A stretch of 64,000 nt of DNA from Streptomyces maremycinicus (GCF_001184025.1 NZ_BBYG01000018.1:62001-126000), one strand, 5' to 3'. Shown: positions 33,160 to 48,381, counted from the stretch's first letter. Translations and numbers: made by a program. The notes: generated by a model from the letters alone, not told the origin.

Positions 33160-33396
33160 TACCGCGCGTCCTGGACAACCCCCGGCATGCTCACCGAAGA
33201 GTGGCAATTCACGCGCATCGGTGATGCCGTACGAAAACGGACCATCTCCGCGATGAGGTGGGCGAATGCCTCCTAGCGGACCCCCGCGTTCGGGTGTTGC
33301 GAAGATGTGCCAGAGTTGCCACGTCCGCCCTGTCAGCACGTACCGTACGGCAGCACAGGTGGGACCAGGTGGGGCAGCGGGAAGGGGCAGCCGGTT

Positions 33397-34290
33397 TTGA
33401 CCACGCACGCACCGCAGGCGGGGCAGGCCGTCACGCTGCCCACGACGCTGGACGAGGCCGTGGCGGCGCTGGCCGCCATGCCCGCAGCCGTGCCCGTGGC
33501 GGGCGGCACCGATCTCATGGCCGCCGTCAACTCGGGGCAGCTCAGGCCCACCGGACTGGTCGGCCTCGGCCGCATCAGCGAGATCCGCGGCTGGCAGTAC
33601 CAGGACGGCCACGCGCTGCTCGGCGCCGGACTCACCCACGCGCGGATGGGCCGCCCCGACTTCGCCGCCCTGATCCCGGCGCTCGCCGCGGCCGCGCGGG
33701 CCGCGGGCCCGCCGCAGATCCGCAACGCGGGCACCCTCGGCGGCAACATCGCCTCGGCCGCGCCCACGGGCGACGCGCTGCCCGTGCTGGCCGCGCTGGA
33801 GGCGACCCTGATCATCGCGGGCCCGGGCGGAGCCCGCCGTGAGATGCCGGTGTCGCACCTGCTCGCCGGCATGGAGATGCTGCGCGGCGGCGAACTCATC
33901 GGGTACGTGCGCGTGCCGCTGCTGCACGCCCCGCAGATCTTCCTGAAGGCGACCGGCCGTACCGGCCCGGGCCGCGCGGTGGCCTCCGTCGCGCTGGTCC
34001 TGGACCCCGCCCGACGGGGCGTCCGGTGCGCCGTCGGGGCCATAGCGCCGATGCCGCTGCGGCCGCTGGAGGCCGAGCAGTGGGTCGCCCGGCTCATCGA
34101 CTGGGACAACAACCGCACCATCGTCCCCGAGGCGCTGAGCGCCTTCGGGGAGTACGTCGCCGCCGCCTGCATCCCCGACCCGGTGCCGGGCGTGGACGGC
34201 TCCGTACCGGAACTTCCGCCCGCCGTACTGCACCTGCGGCGCACCGTCGCCGCGCTGGCCCGACGAGCACTGGGGAGGGCGCTGTCGTGA
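33397..34290 (+). CDS. FAD-binding subunit of a xanthine-dehydrogenase-type molybdenum hydroxylase
   Basis: The 297-aa protein has the FAD-binding signatures VAGGTDLMAAVNSG and RNAGTLGGNIASAAPTGDALPVLAAL, and a CODH-type C-terminal flavin domain. The start is inferred as TTG 33397 (LTTHAPQAGQ), preceded by GGGAAGGGG; no ATG or GTG fits. It would pass electrons from the 2Fe-2S subunit to an acceptor. The 237-bp gap upstream holds no gene. It overlaps the next gene by 4 bp. Confidence 0.87.
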   Translation: MTTHAPQAGQAVTLPTTLDEAVAALAAMPAAVPVAGGTDLMAAVNSGQLRPTGLVGLGRISEIRGWQYQDGHALLGAGLTHARMGRPDFAALIPALAAAARAAGPPQIRNAGTLGGNIASAAPTGDALPVLAALEATLIIAGPGGARREMPVSHLLAGMEMLRGGELIGYVRVPLLHAPQIFLKATGRTGPGRAVASVALVLDPARRGVRCAVGAIAPMPLRPLEAEQWVARLIDWDNNRTIVPEALSAFGEYVAAACIPDPVPGVDGSVPELPPAVLHLRRTVAALARRALGRALS

Positions 34291-36068
34291 GCGACGACCA
34301 GCACGGACCCGGACACGGAAACGGACAGGAAGAAGGGCAGGGCCGGGGCGCGCCGCAGGGCGGCGGCCGCTGGGACCCGCTGCCCCAGGGGGACTACGAC
34401 GACGGCGCGACCGCCTTCGTGAAGCTCCCCGAGGGCGGCATCGACGCCTTCCTGGCCGCCCGCGGCGACAGCCCGCTCGCCGCGCCCGGCCACGGGTACG
34501 TGCCGCCGCAGATAGCGGTGGCGCCCCCCACGGACGACACCTGGGCGGCTCCGGCCGGCGGCTCCGACTGGCCCGTCCCGCAGGACACCCCGCAGACGGT
34601 GGGCGACGACCGGTTCACGTACCACCCCGGCGCGACCGGTCAGTGGGCCTTCGAGGACACCTCGGGACAGGCGGGCGCACCGCGGCCCGCGCCCGGCCAC
34701 GACGTGACGGGCCAGTGGTCGATCCCCGTCGCGGGCGGCGACCTGCCCGACGAGTCCGGCGAGTTCACCACCTCCTCGCTGGTCGAGCAGTGGGGCGGCA
34801 CGCCCCCGGCCACCCTGCCCGGCGGCGCCTCCGCGCCCTGGGCCCCGGCCGGCCCGACGGACCACGGCCCGACCGACCACGGCCCGACCGAGCACGGCGG
34901 GACGGATCAGGCCTGGGGCCGGCACACCGACGAGGCCGACACGGCCGCGCGGCCGGCGACGGACACCCCCGCGTACGGACACGCCCCGGAGCACGGCCCC
35001 ACGGCCGTGGACGCCGACCGGTACCACCCCGCCGCCGACCACACCGGGCAGCTCACGCACCCCACCGGGTCGTTCGCCCCGGAGATCTCCGCCGAGGCGT
35101 ACACGGTCGCCCCCGAAGGCCCCCCGGCGGACGCCGGGCGGGACGCTCAGCGGGCCGCTGAGGCCGAGGGAAGGGCCGAGACGTCCGGGGAGGCCGAGCG
35201 CGCCCACGAGGCCGCTCACGAGCCCGCTGAGGCCGCCCACGGCCCCGCGGAGCCGCCGGCCGAGCCCGCGGCCCCGCACGGAGCCGAGCACGGCCCGGCC
35301 GACGCCCCCGAGGACCGGTCCGCCGCCGCGGACACCGAGGGCGAGCCCGAGGCGGACGCGGCCACCGGGCCGGACGATCCCGACGGGACGGCCGAGCACA
35401 CCGACGACGCCCCGGCGCCGTTCCACGAGGAACACCCCCTCGCCGCCTACACCCTGCGCGTCAACGGCTCCGACCGACCCGTCACCGACGCCTGGATCGG
35501 CGAGTCGCTGCTCTACGTCCTGCGCGAGCGGCTCGGTCTCGCGGGCGCCAAGGACGGCTGCTCGCAGGGCGAGTGCGGAGCCTGCAACGTCCAGGTGGAC
35601 GGCCGGCTCGTCGCCTCCTGCCTGGTCCCGGCCGTCACCACCGCCGGGAGCGAGATCCGCACCGTCGAGGGCCTCGCCGTCGACGGCCGGCCCTCCGACG
35701 TGCAGCGGGCGCTCGCCCGGTGCGGTGCCGTGCAGTGCGGCTTCTGCGTGCCCGGCATGGCGATGACCGTGCACGACCTGCTGGAGGGCAACCCCGCCCC
35801 CACCGAACTCGAGGCGCGCCAGGCCCTGTGCGGCAACCTGTGCCGCTGCTCCGGCTACCGGGGCGTCCTGCGCGCCGTCCAGGACGTCGTCGCCGAACGC
35901 GAGGCGGTCGCCGCCGCCGAGGCCGAGGCGGACGGCGACGAGGCGCGCATTCCGCACCAGGCGGGACCGGGCGCCGGAGGCGTCCACCCGTCGGCGTTCG
36001 AGAACCCTGCACAGCCCCACCCGCACGACCCGGCGTACGGACAGGGCCAGGACGGAGGCCAGGCGTGA
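34287..36068 (+). CDS. 2Fe-2S subunit of molybdenum hydroxylase with a giant N-terminal extension
   Basis: The conserved subunit (normally about 160-200 aa) occupies only residues from about 386 onward. The plant-type cluster is at DGCSQGECGACNVQ (first Cys near 425, CX4CX2C) and the second cluster at CGFCVPGM...CGNLCRCSGY. Ahead of it lie about 385 low-complexity residues rich in Gly, Pro, Ala, Glu, Asp and His, with repeats such as DHGPTDHGPTEHG. GTG 34287 overlaps the FAD-subunit stop and has GGGGAGGG upstream, supporting the long form (593 aa). The extension has no signal peptide or recognised domain. A basic-acidic tail also follows the iron-sulfur domain. Confidence 0.85.
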   Translation: MSDDQHGPGHGNGQEEGQGRGAPQGGGRWDPLPQGDYDDGATAFVKLPEGGIDAFLAARGDSPLAAPGHGYVPPQIAVAPPTDDTWAAPAGGSDWPVPQDTPQTVGDDRFTYHPGATGQWAFEDTSGQAGAPRPAPGHDVTGQWSIPVAGGDLPDESGEFTTSSLVEQWGGTPPATLPGGASAPWAPAGPTDHGPTDHGPTEHGGTDQAWGRHTDEADTAARPATDTPAYGHAPEHGPTAVDADRYHPAADHTGQLTHPTGSFAPEISAEAYTVAPEGPPADAGRDAQRAAEAEGRAETSGEAERAHEAAHEPAEAAHGPAEPPAEPAAPHGAEHGPADAPEDRSAAADTEGEPEADAATGPDDPDGTAEHTDDAPAPFHEEHPLAAYTLRVNGSDRPVTDAWIGESLLYVLRERLGLAGAKDGCSQGECGACNVQVDGRLVASCLVPAVTTAGSEIRTVEGLAVDGRPSDVQRALARCGAVQCGFCVPGMAMTVHDLLEGNPAPTELEARQALCGNLCRCSGYRGVLRAVQDVVAEREAVAAAEAEADGDEARIPHQAGPGAGGVHPSAFENPAQPHPHDPAYGQGQDGGQA

Positions 36069-38377
36069 GCAACGAGACGGTCACCACGACGACCCCCCTG
36101 GACCCCGCCACCCCGGCCTCCGAGCCGATCCCGCACGGCCTCGGCGCCTCCCTCCAGCCCGCCGACGCGCGCGCCAAGACCGAGGGCACCTTCCCGTACG
36201 CCGCCGACCTGTGGGCCGAGGGCCTGCTGTGGGCGGCCGTACTGCGCTCGCCGCACCCGCACGCGCGCATCGTGTCCATCGACACGTCACACGCGCGTGA
36301 GATGCCCGGCGTCCGGGCCGTCGTCACCCACGAGGACGTCCCCGGCCGCGCGCTGCACGGCCGCGGCAAGGCCGACCGCCCGGTGTTCGCCTCCGACGTC
36401 GTACGCCACCACGGCGAGCCCATCGCGGCCGTCGCCGCCGACCACCCGGACACCGCGCGGATGGCCGCCGCGGCCGTCATCGTCGAGTACGAGGTGCTCG
36501 ACCCGGTGATCGACCCCGAGCAGGCCTTCGAGGCGGAGGCGCTGCACCCCGACGGCAACCTGATCCGGCACATCCCGCTGCACCACGGCGACCCGTCCGC
36601 GGCGGGCGACGTCGTCGTCGAGGGCCAGTACCGCATCGGCCGCGCCGACCCCGCCCCGATCGGCGCCGAGGCCGGCCTCGCCGTGCCCCGACCCGACGGC
36701 GGTGTGGAGCTGTACCTCGCCTCCACCGACCCGCACACCGACCGCGACACCGCCGCCGCCTGCTACGGCCTCGAACCCGAGCGCGTGAAGATCGTCGTCA
36801 CCGGTGTGCCCGGTGCCACCGCCGACCGCGAGGACCAGGGCTTCCAGCTCCCGCTCGGCCTGCTCGCGCTGAAGACCGGCTGCCCGGTGAAACTCACCGC
36901 CACCCGCGAGGAGTCCTTCCTCGGGCACGCCCACAGACATCCGACGCTGCTGCGCTACCGCCACCACGCCGACGCCGAGGGCCGGCTGGTGAAGGTCGAG
37001 GCGCAGATCCTGCTGGACGCGGGCGCGTACGCCGACACCTCCGCCGAGGCCCTCGCCGCCGCCGTCTCGTTCGCCTGCGGTCCCTACGTCGTCCCGAACG
37101 CCTTCATCGAGGGCTGGGCGGTCCGCACGAACAACCCGCCGTCGGGCCATGTGCGCGGCGAGGGCGCGATGCAGGTCTGCGCCGCCTACGAGGCGCAGAT
37201 GGACAAGCTGGCCAAGAAGCTCGGCGTCGACCCGGCGGAACTGCGGCTGCGCAACGCCATGGCGACCGGGGACGTCCTGCCGACCGGCCAGACGGTGACC
37301 TGCCCGGCGCCCGTGGCCGAACTCCTCCGGGCCGTCCAGGAGTTCCCCCTTCCGGCGCTCCCCAAGGACACGCCCGAGGAGGACTGGCTGCTGCCCGGCG
37401 GCCCCGAGGGCGCGGGCGAACCGGGCGCGGTGCGCCGGGGCGTCGGCTACGGGCTCGGCATGGTGCACATGCTGGGCGCGGAGGGCGCCGACGAGGTCTC
37501 CACGGCGACCGTGAAGGTCCAGGACGGCGTCGCGACGGTCCTGTGCGCGGCGGTGGAGACGGGACAGGGCTTCACGACGCTGGCCCGCCAGATCGTCCAG
37601 GAGACGCTGGGCGTCGACGAGGTCCACGTGGCCCCCGTCGACACCGACCAGCCGCCCGCGGGCCCCGGCTGCCGGGGGCGCCACACATGGGTGTCCGGCG
37701 GCGCCGTGGAACGCGCGGCGAAGATGGTCCGCACCCAGCTGCTCCAGCCCCTGGCCCACAAGTTCGGCATGTCCACGGAGCTGCTCCAGATCACCGACGG
37801 CAAGATCACCTCGTACGACGGCGTCCTGTCGACGACCGTCACGGAGGAGATGCGCGGCAAGGAGCTGTGGGCGACGGCCCAGTGCCGCCCGCACCCGACC
37901 GAGCCGCTGGACGCGGCCGGCCAGGGCGACGCCTTCGTCGGCCTCGCCTTCTGCGCGATCCGCGCGGTCGTGGACGTCGACATCGAGCTGGGCTCGGTCC
38001 GGGTCGTCGAACTGGCGGTGGCCCAGGACGTGGGCCGCGTCCTCAACCCGGCGCAGCTCACCGCGCGGATCGAGGCCGGGGTCACGCAGGGCGTCGGCAT
38101 CGCGCTCACCGAGAACCTCCGCACGCCGAGGGGCCTGATCCGCCACCCCGACCTCACCGGCTACGCGTTGCCCACGGCCCTGGACGCCCCGGACATCCGG
38201 ATCGTCAAGCTGGTCGAGGAACGCGACGTGGTCGCCCCGTTCGGCGCGAAGGCCGCCAGCGCGGTCCCGGTGGTGACCTCGCCCGCGGCGATCGCCTCCG
38301 CCGTGCGGGCCGCCACGGGCCGCCCGGTGAACCGGCTGCCGATAAGGCCCCAGGCGGCGGTGGTGACGGACCGGTGA
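36065..38377 (+). CDS. Molybdopterin-binding subunit, xanthine dehydrogenase family, with non-canonical active site
   Basis: The 770-aa protein aligns along the whole family: the a/b hammerhead domain (ARAKTEGTFPYAADLWAEGLLWAAVLRSPHPHARI) and then the Mo-binding domains. Key motifs deviate. The usual GGGFGGKED reads GATADRED (residues 250-257). The usual RGFG reads RGEG (364-367). The usual FGAKGVGE reads FGAKAASA (726-733), so the catalytic Glu is Ala. It overlaps the 2Fe-2S gene by 4 bp. It may bind a changed cofactor, use another mechanism or have lost hydroxylase activity. The substrate cannot be named. Confidence 0.85.
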   Translation: MSNETVTTTTPLDPATPASEPIPHGLGASLQPADARAKTEGTFPYAADLWAEGLLWAAVLRSPHPHARIVSIDTSHAREMPGVRAVVTHEDVPGRALHGRGKADRPVFASDVVRHHGEPIAAVAADHPDTARMAAAAVIVEYEVLDPVIDPEQAFEAEALHPDGNLIRHIPLHHGDPSAAGDVVVEGQYRIGRADPAPIGAEAGLAVPRPDGGVELYLASTDPHTDRDTAAACYGLEPERVKIVVTGVPGATADREDQGFQLPLGLLALKTGCPVKLTATREESFLGHAHRHPTLLRYRHHADAEGRLVKVEAQILLDAGAYADTSAEALAAAVSFACGPYVVPNAFIEGWAVRTNNPPSGHVRGEGAMQVCAAYEAQMDKLAKKLGVDPAELRLRNAMATGDVLPTGQTVTCPAPVAELLRAVQEFPLPALPKDTPEEDWLLPGGPEGAGEPGAVRRGVGYGLGMVHMLGAEGADEVSTATVKVQDGVATVLCAAVETGQGFTTLARQIVQETLGVDEVHVAPVDTDQPPAGPGCRGRHTWVSGGAVERAAKMVRTQLLQPLAHKFGMSTELLQITDGKITSYDGVLSTTVTEEMRGKELWATAQCRPHPTEPLDAAGQGDAFVGLAFCAIRAVVDVDIELGSVRVVELAVAQDVGRVLNPAQLTARIEAGVTQGVGIALTENLRTPRGLIRHPDLTGYALPTALDAPDIRIVKLVEERDVVAPFGAKAASAVPVVTSPAAIASAVRAATGRPVNRLPIRPQAAVVTDR

Positions 38378-38502
38378 GCGCGCCGGAGCCGGGTTCCCGG
38401 CAGTACGAGCCCCCGCCGAGCGTGGGCAGGCTGCTGGGCTGGATCGCGCTGTTCGTGGTGGCGGCGGTGGTCGTGGTGCTGGGCGGCGTGTACCTCACCT
38501 GA
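38374..38502 (+). CDS. Small single-pass membrane protein, 42 aa
   Basis: GTG 38374 overlaps the stop of the molybdenum subunit by 4 bp. The product has a Pro-rich start (VSAPEPGSRQYEPPPSVGR) and one C-terminal membrane helix (LLGWIALFVVAAVVVVLGGVYL). Coupling and codon use support a real gene. It might anchor the hydroxylase complex at the membrane; this is a guess from position. The following gap to 38759 carries two 20-bp tandem copies of CCGGAGAGGGAACGCGCG near 38571-38609. Confidence 0.7.
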   Translation: MSAPEPGSRQYEPPPSVGRLLGWIALFVVAAVVVVLGGVYLT

Positions 38503-38759
38503 GAGGCGATCGCGCCGATCGGTCCGGAAAGGGGCCGATCGGGCCGAGCCGTCCGGTGGGGGCCGATCGGGCCGGAGAGGGAACGCGCGCTCCGGAGAGG
38601 GAACGCGCGGGGCCGCCCCGGCGTCTGTCAGTGCGGGACCGGTGACGGGTGTGCTGGGTGTGTCCTGGGTGCGGTCGCTGGTCAGAGCCGTTGTCAGTGG
38701 TGCCGCATAGGCTGCGGAGCAGTGGGACGGCGCACGCAACTTTCCGCACGGGGGATCCG

Positions 38760-39998
38760 ATGGGCACGACCAGGAGCAGGACCACCACGACCAGGACCAC
38801 CGCCACGACGACGATCGTCCTCACCGAGGACGAGCTCTCCCCGTACGTCACGCACGCGCCGACGCGCCGCTGGCTCACCGGCCCCGGCCTGCCCGCGACG
38901 CCTGGCGACGCCGGCCTGCTGACGTTCGAGGCGCTGCGCACGGACGGTCTGCGCACGGTCGGGGACTCCACGGGCGACCCCGAAGGCCGCCTCGCGGCCG
39001 AGCTGCGCGACCGGCTGGTGATCGGCGGCCTCCTGGGCGCCGACGGCCGCGAGACGGAGTCCGTCCTGCTCGACGGCATGACCGGCGAGATCTCCACGAC
39101 GTACTTCCTGCACGACCGCCCCGACCTGATGGACCCGCGCCCGCTCGCGCCCTCCCTGGAGAAGCTGGTGCGCTTCGCCACGGCGGTGGACGAACTGGCG
39201 GCCCTGCGCGGCCAGTTCGCCTGCTACGCGAGCCGGCTCGGGCCGAAGGCGGTGGCGGAGGCGTCGCAGCAGCTGCTGGCCGTCTTCGAGGAGGGCGCGC
39301 GGGACACGGGCGGCGCGTCCGGCCCCTTCTGGAAGCTGGCCGCGGTGATCCGCCCGCTGGCACTGGTGGCGGGTCCGGGCACGGCGTCCGGCCTGGCCCT
39401 GGATCTGCCGGTCCGGCTCCTGGACGAGGAGTTCGGCGCCGGCGGGATCGTCCGCTTCGAGGACGTCGACTGCCCGCGAGCGCTCACGCACGCGCCGACC
39501 CGCCGTTTTCTGCGCGAGGTGGGCCTGCCGGAGGAGGTCGTCTGGTTCTCGCTGGAGACCGACATGCCGCTCCAGACCCTCGCCGAGTACTACGCGGACG
39601 ACCGCGCGGGCGACCTCACCGAGGAACTGCTGCCCGCGAACGCCGGCCGGCTGATCCGCCTGGGGCATCTCCTCGAGGACACCAGCCTGGTCGTCGACGG
39701 CGCCACCGGCGCGGTGCTGAGCTGGAGCGAGCCGGACCTCGGCCTGCGCCCGCTCAACGCCGACATCTCCACGCTGGCGTTCACCCTCTGGCTGATCCGC
39801 CGGGAGCGGGCCCTGGACGCGGTGCACCGGCTGACCGACGCCTACGACCAGCTCGCCGAGACGATGTCCCGCACCCTGGCCGCGGTCGACCCGGTCGCCT
39901 GCGACCCGACCCCGGTCCCCTCCGTCCCCACGGACGACGGAGAGCGGTACTGGCCGGGCGTCTTCGAGGACGAGGCGGGCGGGGGCCTGTACGCGTAG
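38760..39998 (+). CDS. SUKH-4-like protein with a duplicated domain
   Basis: The 412-aa cytoplasmic protein contains two related halves, each opening with THAPTRRxL (YVTHAPTRRWLTGPGLP near residue 30, ALTHAPTRRFLREVGLP near 240). Each is followed by a Phe-containing strand and a later L(I/V)RFAT or LIRLGHL stretch, typical of SUKH-4 immunity-like proteins. SUKH proteins neutralise nuclease toxins in several bacterial conflict systems; many Streptomyces copies have no known partner. GGGGGATCCG precedes the ATG. It converges on a secreted nuclease gene 32 bp away. Confidence 0.78.
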   Translation: MGTTRSRTTTTRTTATTTIVLTEDELSPYVTHAPTRRWLTGPGLPATPGDAGLLTFEALRTDGLRTVGDSTGDPEGRLAAELRDRLVIGGLLGADGRETESVLLDGMTGEISTTYFLHDRPDLMDPRPLAPSLEKLVRFATAVDELAALRGQFACYASRLGPKAVAEASQQLLAVFEEGARDTGGASGPFWKLAAVIRPLALVAGPGTASGLALDLPVRLLDEEFGAGGIVRFEDVDCPRALTHAPTRRFLREVGLPEEVVWFSLETDMPLQTLAEYYADDRAGDLTEELLPANAGRLIRLGHLLEDTSLVVDGATGAVLSWSEPDLGLRPLNADISTLAFTLWLIRRERALDAVHRLTDAYDQLAETMSRTLAAVDPVACDPTPVPSVPTDDGERYWPGVFEDEAGGGLYA

Positions 39999-40030: not shown

Positions 40031-42466
40031 TCAGCCCTTGCGGCACCGGCCGACGTCGATCCGCACGACCTGCGGGTCGTGGTCGCTGGCCTGGTCGGCG
40101 AACTCGGCGTTGATGTGCACCACGTCGTAGTCGTAGTGCGTGACGGCCGGGCTCGTGAGGATGTGGTCCAGGGTCTGCGCGTTGCCGTCGTAGACGTAGG
40201 TGTAGCGCTCGGCGGCCGGCAGCGTGGTGATCAGCGGCTTGAGGACCTGGCCGGCCGTCAGGGTGCCGACGGTCTGCGAGAACTCGTAGTCGTTGAGGTC
40301 GCCGAGCACCACGGTCTTGGCGTTCCTGTCCGCCGCGAGCAGGGACTCGACGAAGGTGTTCACCTCCGCCGCCTGCGCCTGGCGCTGGGTCTCGGAGCTG
40401 CGCGACGGCGGCTGGTAGCGCCCGTGCAGGGGCTGGTCGCCGCCCTTGGAGGTGAAGTGGTTGGCGATCACGAAGACCGTCTCGCCGTGGAAGACGAACT
40501 CTCCGACCAGCGGCTTGCGGCTGTCGTCCCAGGCGCCGGAGGCCGGGTCGACGCGCCCGGGGGAGGCGGTGAGCTTCGCGCCCTTCCTGGTCTTCACCAC
40601 GCCGGTGGCCGTCACGGCGTCACCGCCGGCCCGGTCGGTGAACGAGACCCGCTCGGGGTTGAAGAGGAAGACCTGGCGGATGTTGCCGCCGGGCTCGCCG
40701 CCGTCCTGGTTGTCGGCGGGGGCGATGTAGCGCCACCGGTAGCGGGGGCCGCCGGCCGCGCGGATGGCGTCGGTGAACCGCTTCAGGGTGGCCTCGGAGG
40801 TGACCGTGCCGTCATCGGTGGCGCCGTTGTCGTCCTGGATCTCCTCCAGGGCCACGATGTCGGGGGAGTTGAGGTTGACGGCGACACCGTGCGCCAGCCG
40901 GTCGATCTTCTCCTGGGCGTCCAGCGCGTCCAGGTTCTCCACGTTGTACGTGGCGACCGCGAGCTCGCCGCCCTTCTGCCGGCGGGTCACTTCCTGCTTC
41001 AGCCCGTTGTCGACCAGCGTGCCGAGCCGGGTGGCCTGGACGTTGTAGCCGCCGTAGGTGGAGTAGTCGAGCGGCCCGGTGGTGGTGCCGGACAGCTCGT
41101 CGCCGACGTCGGCCGAGGGGAAGGCGGAGGTGGTGTCGAGCGACATGACCTCCAGCCGCCCGGTGTTCGGCCGGTCGTAGGAGGAGTAGAGGGTCCCGCC
41201 GCGTGGCGTGGCGTTCTCGTCCGGCTTGACGGTCACCCACAGCTCGCCGTAGGCGTCGCTCGCGCCGACCACACGCGCGTCGGAGAACGCGACCCGCATG
41301 CCCTCCGCCGACTCGTAGAAGTCCTGCGCGTACACGCCCGGTTCGAGGGCGAGCGACTCGACGCTGCCGCCCCCGGCCCTGGGGATGTACGCGCCGGGGA
41401 CGCTGGTGGCGTCCACGGTGACGGCGGCGGGCAGCGCGTTGCCGCCGGACAGCACGGTCGTGGTCGGCGCGGTGAGCTCGGTGACCGACTGGCTGGTGCT
41501 GCTCGGGTAGTACTCGCTGACCTTGCCGCTGACCAGCACGGAGTCGCCGACGGCGACGGTGGGGGTGACGGACCCGGTGTACACGAACACGCCCTCGCTG
41601 GTGCGGGGGTCGGCGTCCGCGGCCGGGTCCTGGATCCAGTACCCCTTGGACCCGGAGGTCCGCACCCCGGTGACGACGCCCGGCACCCGGCCGACGCTCT
41701 GCCCGGCGAGCGGGGAGAGCCGGGTGGTGCCCTGGATGTCGTGGACGCGGACGGTACCGGGCGTGCTCGGATCGCCGCCGCCGTCCCCGCCACCGTCCCC
41801 CGAACCGGGCGTCTGCCCGGCGGAGTTGACCGGCGTGGGGGCTCCCGCCGCCAGGTCGGACGCGTTGTCGTCGGTGTCGCCCAGGGCGGCGCCGCGCGCC
41901 ACGGCGGCGGTGTTGGAGGCCCCGGCGGCCGGCCCGCTGCCCTCCCGTACGAGGGCGCTGCCGTAGCCGACCAGGTCGACGATCCGGCTGTCGGCGGCGC
42001 AGTCGGCGGCCGTTCTGCACGTCAGGGCGGTGGTGCCGGAGACGAGCGCGAGGGTGCCGCTGGTGGCGCTCATGGCGATGGTCCCGGTGGCGTCGGCGGT
42101 GGGCAGCGCGGTGCTCCCTCCGGTGCCGGCGGCCTCGGCGACGAGGAATCGCCCGCCGGGCGCGACGGTCCCGCTCAGCGTGGTCACCTGCCACAGCGAG
42201 GACGCCGACGGCGCACCCGGCAGGTACTGCACGCTGTACCCGGCCAGGTCGTAGGCAGCCGACCCCGCGTTGCCCAGCTCGACGAAGTCCCGGGTCAGGG
42301 TCGCCCCCGAGTTCCCGCCCCCGCCGTACGCCTCGGAGATCACCGCGGAGGCGGACGGCGCCGCGTAGGCGGCGGGCAGCGAGGTGATGGCGAACGCGCT
42401 CGCCACACCCACGGCGATGAGCGCGCAGGCGGCACGGCGGGGTCTGTTCCCTACGGATCTGGACAC
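40031..42466 (-). CDS. Large secreted nuclease (lamin-tail, OB-fold and EEP domains)
   Basis: The 811-aa protein starts at GTG 42466 with GGAGACC upstream. A signal peptide (AACALIAVGVASAFAITSLPAAYA) is followed by a lamin-tail domain (SAVISEAYGGGGNSGATLTRDFVELGNAG). A linker rich in Gly/Asp leads to an OB-like nucleic-acid-binding domain (VRVHDIQGTTRLSPLAGQSV). The C-terminal endonuclease/exonuclease/phosphatase domain has VATYNVENLD, ALEEIQDDNG, VIANHFTSKGGD, LGDLND and SDHDP. It should degrade extracellular DNA for nutrient or phosphate recovery. I looked for PHO boxes upstream and found no convincing one. Confidence 0.9.
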   Translation of the reverse strand: MSRSVGNRPRRAACALIAVGVASAFAITSLPAAYAAPSASAVISEAYGGGGNSGATLTRDFVELGNAGSAAYDLAGYSVQYLPGAPSASSLWQVTTLSGTVAPGGRFLVAEAAGTGGSTALPTADATGTIAMSATSGTLALVSGTTALTCRTAADCAADSRIVDLVGYGSALVREGSGPAAGASNTAAVARGAALGDTDDNASDLAAGAPTPVNSAGQTPGSGDGGGDGGGDPSTPGTVRVHDIQGTTRLSPLAGQSVGRVPGVVTGVRTSGSKGYWIQDPAADADPRTSEGVFVYTGSVTPTVAVGDSVLVSGKVSEYYPSSTSQSVTELTAPTTTVLSGGNALPAAVTVDATSVPGAYIPRAGGGSVESLALEPGVYAQDFYESAEGMRVAFSDARVVGASDAYGELWVTVKPDENATPRGGTLYSSYDRPNTGRLEVMSLDTTSAFPSADVGDELSGTTTGPLDYSTYGGYNVQATRLGTLVDNGLKQEVTRRQKGGELAVATYNVENLDALDAQEKIDRLAHGVAVNLNSPDIVALEEIQDDNGATDDGTVTSEATLKRFTDAIRAAGGPRYRWRYIAPADNQDGGEPGGNIRQVFLFNPERVSFTDRAGGDAVTATGVVKTRKGAKLTASPGRVDPASGAWDDSRKPLVGEFVFHGETVFVIANHFTSKGGDQPLHGRYQPPSRSSETQRQAQAAEVNTFVESLLAADRNAKTVVLGDLNDYEFSQTVGTLTAGQVLKPLITTLPAAERYTYVYDGNAQTLDHILTSPAVTHYDYDVVHINAEFADQASDHDPQVVRIDVGRCRKG

Positions 42467-44888: not shown

Positions 44889-46394
44889 ATGTCGGTTGCG
44901 GACCTTACGCTGGCGACCATGGCTGCCCTCGAACCCCGCGACACCGGTGTCGCCGACGACGTCCCGTCCCCTCCGTCCGCCGCCGCCGTGGAGCGGGCCG
45001 GCGAGACCGTTCTCGGGCGGTCCTACCGGGCCCTCACCATCGGGATCGTCTCCGTGGTGCTGCTCATCGCCTTCGAGGCGACCGCCGTGGGGACCGCCAT
45101 GCCGGTGGCGGCGCGCGAGCTCGACGGGGTGGCGTTGTACGCGTTCGCGTTCTCCGGCTACTTCACCACCAGCCTGTTCGGGATGGTGTTCGCCGGGCAG
45201 TGGTCGGACCGGCGGGGACCGCTCGGGGCGCTCGGCGGCGGCATCGCGGCCTTCGCCGCCGGGCTGCTCCTCTCCGGCAGCGCCGGGAGCATGTGGGTGT
45301 TCATCCTCGGCAGGGCCGTGCAGGGGCTGGGCGGCGGGCTGGTGATCGTCGCCCTGTACGTCGTCGTCGGTCGGGCCTACCCGGAGCGGCTGCGGCCCGC
45401 GATCATGGCCGCGTTCGCCGCCTGCTGGGTCGTGCCGTCCGTGGTCGGGCCGCTGGCCGCCGGTGCGGTCACCGAGCGGCTCGGGTGGCGCTGGGTCTTC
45501 CTCGGGACGCCCGCCCTCGTGGTGCTTCCGCTCGCGCTCGCGCTGCCGCAGATACGGCGGCGGGCGGGCGGGCCCGTGGAGGGCCTGACCGCGGGCGCCT
45601 TCGACCGGCGGCGGATCAGGCTCGCCCTCGGCATCTCGCTGGGCGCCGGACTGCTCCAGTACGCCGCCCAGGACCTGCGGCCCGTCTCCCTCCTCCCCGG
45701 CGCCGCGGGCGTCGCGCTGCTCGTGCCCGCCGTGCTCGGGCTGCTGCCGCACGGCACCTGGCGGGCCGCCCGCGGGCTGCCGTCCGTCGTGCTGCTGCGC
45801 GGGGTGGCCGCCGGGTCCTTCGTCGCCGCCGAGTCCTTCGTGCCGCTGATGCTGGTGACGCAGCGGGGGCTGAGCCCGACACTGGCCGGGTTCTCCCTCG
45901 CGGCCGGCGGGGCGACCTGGGCGCTCGGGTCGTGGGTGCAGTCCCGTCCGTGGGCGGAGCCGTACCGGGAGCGGCTGATGGCCCTCGGGATGGTGCTGAC
46001 GGCCGCCGCCATCGCCACCGCGCCCAGCGTCCTGATCCACTCCGTACCCGTCTGGACCGTGGCCGTCGCCTGGGGCTTCGGGTGCTTCGGGATGGGGCTG
46101 GTGATCGCCGCGTCGAGCGTGCTGCTGCTGAAGCTGTCCGCTCCCGCGGAGGCCGGGGCCAACTCCGCCGCCCTCCAGATCTCGGACGGTCTGTCCAATG
46201 TGCTGCTGCTGGCGGCGGGCGGTGCCGCCTTCGCGGCGCTCGGTGGCGGGAGCGTGGCGCACGCGACGGCGGCGACGGCCACGAGCGCCGCCGGTTCGCA
46301 TCCGGCCGCCTTCGCCGCCGTCTTCCTGCCCATGGCGGCCGTCGCGCTGTTCGGGGCCTGGGTGACGACACGGCTGCGGGCGCGGCCACGCTGA
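44889..46394 (+). CDS. Major facilitator superfamily transporter
   Basis: The 501-aa protein has 12 or more hydrophobic segments, the MFS motif A (GQWSDRRGPLGALGGG) and the motif LGRAVQGLGGGLVIVALYVVVG. It resembles drug:H+ antiporters, so export of a small molecule is plausible, with substrate unknown. Two starts compete. ATG 44889 has AGGGG upstream. ATG 44919 is eight bases after TACGCT, which would suit a leaderless transcript. No regulator gene is adjacent. Confidence 0.88.
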   Translation: MSVADLTLATMAALEPRDTGVADDVPSPPSAAAVERAGETVLGRSYRALTIGIVSVVLLIAFEATAVGTAMPVAARELDGVALYAFAFSGYFTTSLFGMVFAGQWSDRRGPLGALGGGIAAFAAGLLLSGSAGSMWVFILGRAVQGLGGGLVIVALYVVVGRAYPERLRPAIMAAFAACWVVPSVVGPLAAGAVTERLGWRWVFLGTPALVVLPLALALPQIRRRAGGPVEGLTAGAFDRRRIRLALGISLGAGLLQYAAQDLRPVSLLPGAAGVALLVPAVLGLLPHGTWRAARGLPSVVLLRGVAAGSFVAAESFVPLMLVTQRGLSPTLAGFSLAAGGATWALGSWVQSRPWAEPYRERLMALGMVLTAAAIATAPSVLIHSVPVWTVAVAWGFGCFGMGLVIAASSVLLLKLSAPAEAGANSAALQISDGLSNVLLLAAGGAAFAALGGGSVAHATAATATSAAGSHPAAFAAVFLPMAAVALFGAWVTTRLRARPR

Positions 46395-46490: not shown

Positions 46491-46517
46491 TTGACGGTGT
46501 CGGGCCGCCGGTAGGGT
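46491..46517 (+). promoter_or_regulatory. Candidate promoter of the helicase gene
   Basis: TTGACG (46491-46496) and TAGGGT (46512-46517) are good hexamers, but the spacing is only 15 bp, shorter than the usual 17-18. It lies about 60 bp before the GTG start. Confidence 0.4.
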
Positions 46518-46578
46518 GGCCCGGTTGTCATACGCAGCCGAGAGCCGAGCAGCCCGCCCGACCCTGAACCCGGAGACC

Positions 46579-48381
46579 GTGACTACCACCGCCGCTTCCT
46601 CCACCTCCCACTCCCACCACCTGTCACCGGCCTTCCCGGGCCGAGCCCCCTGGGGCACCGCGAGCAAGCTGCGGGCCTGGCAGCAGGGGGCGATGGAGAA
46701 GTACCTCCAGGAGCAGCCGCGCGACTTCCTGGCCGTCGCCACACCCGGCGCCGGCAAGACGACCTTCGCGCTGACCCTGGCCTCCTGGCTGCTGCACCAC
46801 CATGTCGTGCAGCAGGTGACGGTGGTCGCGCCGACCGAGCATCTGAAGAAGCAGTGGGCGGAGGCGGCCGCGCGGATAGGGATCCGGCTGGACCCGGAGT
46901 ACAGCGCGGGCCCGCTCAGCAAGGACTACCACGGTGTCGCCGTGACGTACGCGGGTGTCGGCGTCCGCCCGATGCTGCACCGCAACCGCAGCGAGCAGCG
47001 CAAGACCCTCGTCATCCTCGACGAGATCCACCACGCCGGCGACTCCAAGTCCTGGGGCGAGGCCTGCCTCGAGGCCTTCGAGCCGGCGACCCGGCGTCTG
47101 GCGCTCACCGGTACGCCGTTCCGTTCCGACACCAATCCCATCCCCTTCGTGTCGTACGAGGAGGGCAACGACGGGATCCGGCGGTCGGCGGCCGACTACA
47201 CCTACGGCTACGGGTCCGCGCTCGCCGACCAGGTCGTCCGGCCCGTCATCTTCCTCTCCTACAGCGGCAACATGCGCTGGCGGACCAAGGCGGGCGACGA
47301 GATCGCGGCGCGGCTCGGCGAGCCGATGACCAAGGACGCGGTCAGCCAGGCCTGGCGTACGGCGCTGGACCCGCGCGGGGAGTGGATGCCGAGCGTGCTG
47401 CGCGCCGCCGACCAGCGGCTCACCGAGGTCAGGAAGGCCATCCCGGACGCCGGCGCGCTCGTCATCGCCTCCGACCAGGAGTCGGCCCGCGCCTACGCCA
47501 AGCTGATCCGGGAGATCACCGGGACGAAGGCGACCCTCGTCCTGTCCGACGACACCGGCGCGTCCAGCCGCATCGACGACTTCAGCGGCAGCAACGACCG
47601 CTGGATGGTCGCGGTGCGGATGGTGTCGGAAGGCGTCGACGTGCCCCGGCTCGCCGTCGGGGTGTACGCGACGACCATCTCCACACCCCTCTTCTTCGCC
47701 CAGGCCGTCGGGCGTTTCGTGCGGTCCAGGCGGCGCGGTGAGACCGCCTCCGTCTTCCTCCCGACCGTGCCCGACCTGCTCACCTTCGCCAACGAGATGG
47801 AGGTCGAGCGCGACCACGCCCTCGACAAGCCCAAGAAGGAGGGCGAGGAGGATCCGTACGCCGAGTCCGAGCAGGAGATGGACGAGGCGAACAAGGAGCA
47901 GGACGAGGACACCGGCGAGCAGGAGCAGTTCGCCTTCGAGGCGCTGGAGTCCGAGGCCGTCTTCGACCGGGTGATGTACAACGGCGCCGAGTTCGGCATG
48001 CAGGCCCACCCGGGGAGCGAGGAGGAGCAGGACTACCTCGGCATCCCGGGTCTGCTGGAGCCCGACCAGGTGCAGATGCTGCTCCAGAAGCGGCAGGCCA
48101 AGCAGATCGCGCACAGCCGCAAGAAGCCGGACACCGAGGCGGACCTGCTGGAGCTGCCGGCCGAGCGGCGGCCGGTCGTCTCGCACAAGGAGCTGATGGA
48201 GCTGCGCAAGCAGCTCAACACGATGGTGGGGGCGTACGTCCACCAGAGCGGCAAACCGCACGGTGTGATCCACACCGAGCTGCGCCGGGTGTGCGGTGGG
48301 CCGCCGAGCGCGGAGGCGACGGCGGGGCAGCTGCGGCAGCGCATCGCCAAGGTGCAGGAGTGGGCGACCCGGATGAAGTGA
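46579..48381 (+). CDS. DEAD/DEAH-box superfamily 2 helicase
   Basis: Starting at GTG 46579 (VTTTAASS) the protein is 600 aa. Motifs appear in order: Walker A ATPGAGKT near residue 55, VVAPTEHLKKQW, DEIHH (DExH box), LTGTPFRSD, VRMVSEGVDVPRLAVGVYAT and QAVGRFVRS (motif VI). A very acidic insert (about residues 410-455, with EEDPYAESEQEMDEANKEQDEDTGEQEQ) precedes a C-terminal region of unknown fold. It is probably a DNA or RNA translocase of nucleic-acid repair or metabolism. The gene is single and well conserved in Streptomyces as far as I recall. Confidence 0.9.
   Translation: MTTTAASSTSHSHHLSPAFPGRAPWGTASKLRAWQQGAMEKYLQEQPRDFLAVATPGAGKTTFALTLASWLLHHHVVQQVTVVAPTEHLKKQWAEAAARIGIRLDPEYSAGPLSKDYHGVAVTYAGVGVRPMLHRNRSEQRKTLVILDEIHHAGDSKSWGEACLEAFEPATRRLALTGTPFRSDTNPIPFVSYEEGNDGIRRSAADYTYGYGSALADQVVRPVIFLSYSGNMRWRTKAGDEIAARLGEPMTKDAVSQAWRTALDPRGEWMPSVLRAADQRLTEVRKAIPDAGALVIASDQESARAYAKLIREITGTKATLVLSDDTGASSRIDDFSGSNDRWMVAVRMVSEGVDVPRLAVGVYATTISTPLFFAQAVGRFVRSRRRGETASVFLPTVPDLLTFANEMEVERDHALDKPKKEGEEDPYAESEQEMDEANKEQDEDTGEQEQFAFEALESEAVFDRVMYNGAEFGMQAHPGSEEEQDYLGIPGLLEPDQVQMLLQKRQAKQIAHSRKKPDTEADLLELPAERRPVVSHKELMELRKQLNTMVGAYVHQSGKPHGVIHTELRRVCGGPPSAEATAGQLRQRIAKVQEWATRMK

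Follow-up and report, generated by a model that had tools for sequence, protein, structure and literature searches.

A xanthine dehydrogenase-like operon of Streptomycetaceae that has lost its molybdenum-site residues and is probably molybdenum-independent

Positions 33397 to 38502 of the 64,000-nucleotide stretch of Streptomyces maremycinicus DNA analysed here (GCF_001184025.1 NZ_BBYG01000018.1:62001-126000; the window), part of an 8.7 Mb Streptomyces-type genome, carry four plus-strand genes with 4-base overlaps that resemble a molybdenum hydroxylase operon of the xanthine oxidase family. We consider it likely, from comparison of sequences, that this operon encodes a molybdenum-independent complex for electron transfer through flavin adenine dinucleotide (FAD) and [2Fe-2S] clusters, with a degenerate large subunit, descended from a PucD-type xanthine dehydrogenase, that would act as scaffold. 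The comparisons indicate that the large subunit lost its molybdenum cofactor residues in place and once in the history of the family, and that the altered site has been constant since. The genes were assigned by Pfam and, for the large subunit, also by homologues in the PDB, alignments and dN/dS (the ratio of nonsynonymous to synonymous substitution rates, given as the median over 65 relatives unless a pair of genomes is named):

33397..34290, plus strand: FAD subunit, with FAD_binding_5; C-terminal PF03450 domain undetectable
34287..36068, plus strand: Fe-S subunit, 593 amino acids, a long disordered extension followed by two [2Fe-2S] domains (Fer2 and Fer2_2)
36065..38377, plus strand: large subunit, 770 amino acids, with the xanthine oxidase family domains Ald_Xan_dh_C, MoCoBD_1 and MoCoBD_2 and a degenerate molybdenum site
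38374..38502, plus strand: single-pass membrane peptide, 42 amino acids, with a GTGA overlap with the large subunit; optional, in 50 of 146 orthologous loci

For the FAD subunit a TTG start was chosen; a GTG lies upstream in frame at 33307, and similarity to orthologues starts near 33397.

The large subunit is homologous over about 730 residues to Kdh (PDB 7dqx), 4-hydroxybenzoyl-CoA reductase (4-HBCR; 1rm6) and the aldehyde oxidoreductase of D. gigas (DgAOR; 1sij), all of which keep a catalytic Glu that is Ala in the Streptomyces variant. An earlier note on this DNA had listed three altered motifs, GATADRED (250), RGEG (364) and FGAKAASA (726), and had proposed that the last of them removes the general-base Glu. 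The three motifs are where it placed them, and the alignment of A733 to the Glu of the solved enzymes bears out the proposed loss. Two further sites are changed as well, with D222 in place of the Q of the TQW motif and CRGRH in place of SASRQ. Conservation of the sites was counted over 157 distinct orthologous large subunits (variants) from Streptomycetaceae:

36728..36730, plus strand: D222, replacing the Q of the TQ(W/N) motif; Asp in 156 of 157 variants
36818..36823, plus strand: T252-A253, replacing the pterin-stacking Phe and the molybdenum-proximal Gly (Kdh F269-G270; alignment, PMC8305194)
37154..37165, plus strand: RGEG (364-367); E366 in 157 of 157
37673..37684, plus strand: R537-G-R-H540, replacing A-S-R-Q; R or H at 537 in 157 of 157
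38261..38263, plus strand: A733, replacing the general-base Glu; aligned to Kdh E748, DgAOR E869 and 4-HBCR E726

Position 733 is Ala in 156 variants and Ser in one, so that the catalytic Glu of the GxGE motif is never present. Position 252 is T, M or L in nearly all variants (F in one), and position 253 is A in 134 and G in 22. E366 aligns to P385 of Kdh, in a loop where families carry F, Y, V or P, and position 537 aligns to S552 of Kdh or, in the 1sij alignment, to Gly697. In Kdh, F269 stacks on the pterin, the strictly conserved G270 lies 3.9 Å from the molybdenum, and the loop matching RGEG is about 4 Å from the metal; the E748A mutant has no detectable activity and F269A retains 25% of kcat (PMC8305194). 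Kdh retains the pterin and molybdenum contacts that are changed in the variant. Judged from these alignments, the variant has lost its catalytic base along with several of its contacts to the cofactor, other residues standing in their place.

The altered site is not the mark of one decayed copy, since the orthologues retain it. Orthologues were found at E=0 in 194 of 199 sampled Streptomyces and matches above threshold in all 17 sampled genera of Streptomycetaceae, two of which carry a divergent sister form. In a few Streptomyces (G008, G178, G119 and G171) the variant is absent altogether or there is a weaker match only, and it is therefore not strictly essential. The large and FAD subunits have dN/dS values of 0.11 and 0.13, and the core of the Fe-S subunit has 0.15, compared with 0.29 for a neighbouring hexosaminidase. 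The earlier note had reasoned that values near one would betray a cluster of pseudogenes; at about 0.11, the operon is not a pseudogene. Slow decay of a pseudo-operon, which would account for the lost catalytic motifs, is refuted by these values (0.11-0.15), by intact reading frames in almost every one of hundreds of genomes and by the invariant Fe-S cysteines described below, and we give it virtually no credence.

The variant and the sister form fall together as one clade in a maximum-likelihood tree, opposite all canonical PucD-type sequences (SH-like approximate likelihood ratio test, 100). The closest canonical relatives outside Streptomycetaceae (L107/L211, L207 and L208) belong to an actinobacterial family, f9, and retain STQWLH, GGAFGARED, RGFG, STSASR and FGAKGVGE; the same major facilitator superfamily (MFS) transporter follows in these relatives, and the same helicase comes next in two of three genomes. 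Because such syntenic outgroup orthologues keep the canonical motifs, the change occurred in place, and tree and synteny together argue that the variant is the in-place descendant of a real PucD-type xanthine dehydrogenase. Viral contigs were scanned as well, and no relative came up. Against the cut-off of 783.65 bits for the PucD equivalog TIGR03196, the large subunit of the window scores 646.9 and falls below, the syntenic L107 passes with 816.1, and a canonical paralogue in the same genome (G000:C19) is just under with 771.8. This paralogue keeps ATQW, GGAFGGRED, RGFG, SASRQ and GIGE, and the second, canonical xanthine dehydrogenase in Streptomyces has XdhC about 2 kb downstream. With PucD/PucC/PucE (G000:C19, L107/L207/L208) the operon shares subunit composition, domain order, Fe-S cysteines, N-terminal FAD motifs and, by tree and synteny, common descent. 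It differs from them in that the catalytic Glu, the pterin-stacking Phe, the molybdenum-proximal Gly, TQ and SASRQ are all replaced, in its score below the PucD cut-off, in its long disordered Fe-S tail and diverged FAD C-terminal domain, and in being kept without XdhC and, in four genomes, also without MocA.

The sister form (L082-L087, two genera) has a partly altered site as well, with GGSGGxRED or similar, RGPG or RGSG, and GLGD or GLSD. Unlike the variant it has Asp at the position of the Glu and lacks E366, and in one genus there is no long Fe-S tail. The SPAGD motif of its FAD subunit is also changed.

Enzymes of the xanthine oxidase family usually need XdhC for insertion of the sulfurated cofactor, and those with molybdopterin cytosine dinucleotide (MCD) need MocA; XdhC matures even the xanthine dehydrogenase of R. 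capsulatus, which carries plain molybdenum-molybdopterin (Mo-MPT; PMC2997495). XdhC is absent from nine genomes that have the variant (G043, G113, G135, G466, G523, G723, G762, G803 and G807), all of them at least 98% complete and one, G803, a single contig. The variant is the only full-length family protein in the nine genomes (G135 adds one fragment of 35 residues); its frame is open, and its motifs are of the variant type in those examined. In four of them, G043, G113, G135 and G466, MocA is absent too, the only other NTP-transferase-type matches scoring at most 45 bits. These four represent at least two lineages, and in pairs of relatives of which neither has MocA or XdhC, the dN/dS of the large subunit is 0.164 (G043-G466) and 0.056 (G135-G113). 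That purifying selection persists after the loss of both MocA and XdhC argues more strongly than any other observation for a conserved function that needs no MCD. One further genome, G002, was considered as free of molybdenum cofactor for want of a MoaA match; it keeps XdhC and a MocA-like gene, the gap is probably one of assembly, and the genome was not used.

The same genomes bear on two other explanations. The operon might encode an MCD-containing hydroxylase with a new substrate specificity, as ordinary divergence of a subfamily: it matches the family in fold and subunit composition, and specificity loops differ among family members. However, the Glu that is Ala in the variant is conserved in the canonical relatives, and purifying selection persists where MocA and XdhC are both missing, which makes this explanation improbable. 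Alternatively, the product might act on the canonical xanthine dehydrogenase, whose genes lie elsewhere in the genome (G000:C19), as a regulatory or dominant partner; the two co-occur in most Streptomyces, and large subunits of the family often dimerise. We rejected this idea, to which we assign only a slim chance, because the nine genomes keep the variant without a full-length canonical member to pair with; its own FAD and Fe-S sites are, moreover, fully conserved. The view of the earlier note, that this is no xanthine dehydrogenase but a redox complex of a conserved, non-standard type, is supported by the conservation of the motifs, by dN/dS and by retention without XdhC, in four cases also without MocA.

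Several observations weigh against independence from molybdenum. That XdhC is lost does not by itself prove the point, and a MocA-like gene persists in G523. Because no MocA-like protein passes the TIGR03310 cut-off, control Streptomyces included, MocA was identified from a score gap (90-129 versus at most 45 bits); of the nine genomes, the check for it covered G043, G113, G135 and G466, where it is absent, and G523. MoaA is present in the MocA-less genomes tested for it, which is compatible with plain Mo-MPT, as in the R. capsulatus enzyme. Features of the cofactor region persist in the large subunit, with R364 and RED kept and GQG found in 147 of 157 variants. The C-terminal domain of the FAD subunit has diverged, and the redox partner may have changed too. 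AlphaFold prediction of the large subunit, with 34 close orthologues only, gave a mean pLDDT (predicted local distance difference test) of 32 and no usable model. The persisting cofactor features and MoaA also favour the main rival explanation, a re-engineered molybdenum enzyme that would bind Mo-MPT without cytidine or XdhC and use E366 as general base in place of the lost Glu; E366 is invariant and falls in the loop close to molybdenum in Kdh. Such an enzyme would have to function with the pterin-stacking Phe, the strictly conserved molybdenum-proximal Gly and the SASRQ contacts altered too, and without an XdhC that even a Mo-MPT enzyme needs. We regard it as unlikely, though deserving of more weight than the other alternatives.

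The electron-transfer parts had been described as intact in the earlier note, which holds for the clusters and for the N-terminal FAD motifs. The eight cysteines that are [2Fe-2S] ligands are invariant in all 155 loci, and the FAD motifs AGGTDLM and TLGGN..P.GD (TLGGNI..PTGD in the window) show essentially no variation across the 80 loci covered. It does not hold for the C-terminal PF03450 domain of the FAD subunit, which is detected in canonical relatives and undetected in the window and in L072. The features of the Fe-S subunit are:

34287..35429, plus strand: low-complexity N-terminal extension, residues 1-381, rich in A, G, P, D, T and E; dN/dS 0.55, weakly constrained
34407-34421, plus strand: ATAFV, a short conserved motif in the extension; 60 of 65 loci
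35430..35909, plus strand: core with two [2Fe-2S] clusters, residues 382-541
35949..35960, plus strand: IPHQ motif in the C-terminal tail; IPHQ-like in 63 of 65 loci

The Fe-S domain begins near residue 382 of 593. The gain of a giant Fe-S subunit, as the earlier note put it, stands as far as some 381 extra low-complexity residues are concerned, but these form a variable disordered tail that sits at the other end in related genera. The extension is best regarded as a disordered region for tethering or for binding a partner, and not as an added domain. The long tail is N-terminal in Streptomyces, C-terminal in several genera (e.g., L071-L080) and missing in one genus (L085-L087). The membrane peptide is a real gene with a near-constant 4-base overlap and a conserved sequence, RYEPPP.xGKLLLW...AA..VVLGG(V/I)Y, but it is limited to a clade and was found in no other genus examined. 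Attachment to the membrane is consequently a weak proposal: the peptide accompanies about one third of the orthologues, and its absence from about two thirds, and from all other genera examined, led us to downgrade the idea of a membrane complex.

In a molybdenum-independent complex, electrons would enter at one redox site and run along the wire formed by the FAD and the two [2Fe-2S] clusters; NAD(P)H might deliver them to the FAD, with exit via the Fe-S end, or the flow might be the reverse. NAD(P)H as partner on the FAD side is a guess, made because xanthine oxidoreductases have diaphorase activity. The other partner might dock on the remodelled pocket of the large subunit or be held by the disordered Fe-S tail. 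The large subunit would serve as a scaffold and as a docking or ligand-binding surface, and its former active site, with the invariant E366, the near-invariant D222 and the basic R/H537, R539 and H540, could accommodate a new ligand. The membrane peptide may tether the complex in some Streptomyces.

No case of cofactor loss in the xanthine oxidase family was found in the literature searched, the coverage of which was partial, so that absence is not proof. To our knowledge, there is no case of molybdenum loss with a retained redox or scaffold role in this family. On balance we lean towards regarding the operon as a molybdenum-free member of the family, possibly the first to be recognised: a core redox complex of Streptomycetaceae, its pocket seemingly rebuilt around E366 and basic residues for a different ligand or partner and its electrons carried by FAD and two [2Fe-2S] clusters. 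In the MopB/dimethyl sulfoxide reductase superfamily, three lineages have lost the molybdenum cofactor while keeping a role in electron transfer or as scaffold, including Nqo3 of complex I (PMC10100899). Nqo3, FhcB and ActB resemble the present case in that large subunits derived from molybdenum enzymes that lost their cofactor serve in electron transfer and scaffolding (PMC10100899). They belong to another superfamily with another fold, and the domains that Pfam finds in the large subunit are of the xanthine oxidase family and not of the MopB fold; the parallel is functional only, and no homology is claimed.

Just downstream of the operon, a sigma-E-like promoter (GGAAC-N17-CGTCTG, window 38599-38627) precedes a gene for a SUKH-4 domain protein (open reading frame (ORF) 38649-39998), and relatives have a similar sequence downstream of the operon. 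Sigma-E is reported to target SCO2939 in S. coelicolor (PMC6767563), consistent with the SUKH-4 gene of the window being the orthologue of SCO2939. A large ORF on the minus strand (40031-42466) has a Lamin Tail Domain and endonuclease/exonuclease/phosphatase domains, and its product is probably an extracellular nuclease. Farther on, the MFS transporter (44889-46394) and the DEAD/ResIII helicase (46516-48381) form, together with the operon, an old conserved neighbourhood that the outside actinobacterial family shares.

The probable S. coelicolor orthologue of the large subunit, by annotation and neighbourhood and not by sequence match, is SCO2940, which has been listed as “putative oxidoreductase / xanthine dehydrogenase, putative” (PMC3770449). 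For SCO2939-SCO2942 we found one table entry each for SCO2940 and SCO2939 in the literature, and nothing more. In conclusion, the operon is real, conserved and misleadingly annotated, and probably molybdenum-independent. Genomes without XdhC, some of them also without MocA, provide a natural experiment on its need for molybdenum. The operon is near-universal in Streptomyces, where annotation based on domains would call it a xanthine dehydrogenase, and metabolic models probably assign it a reaction that is beyond its ability.
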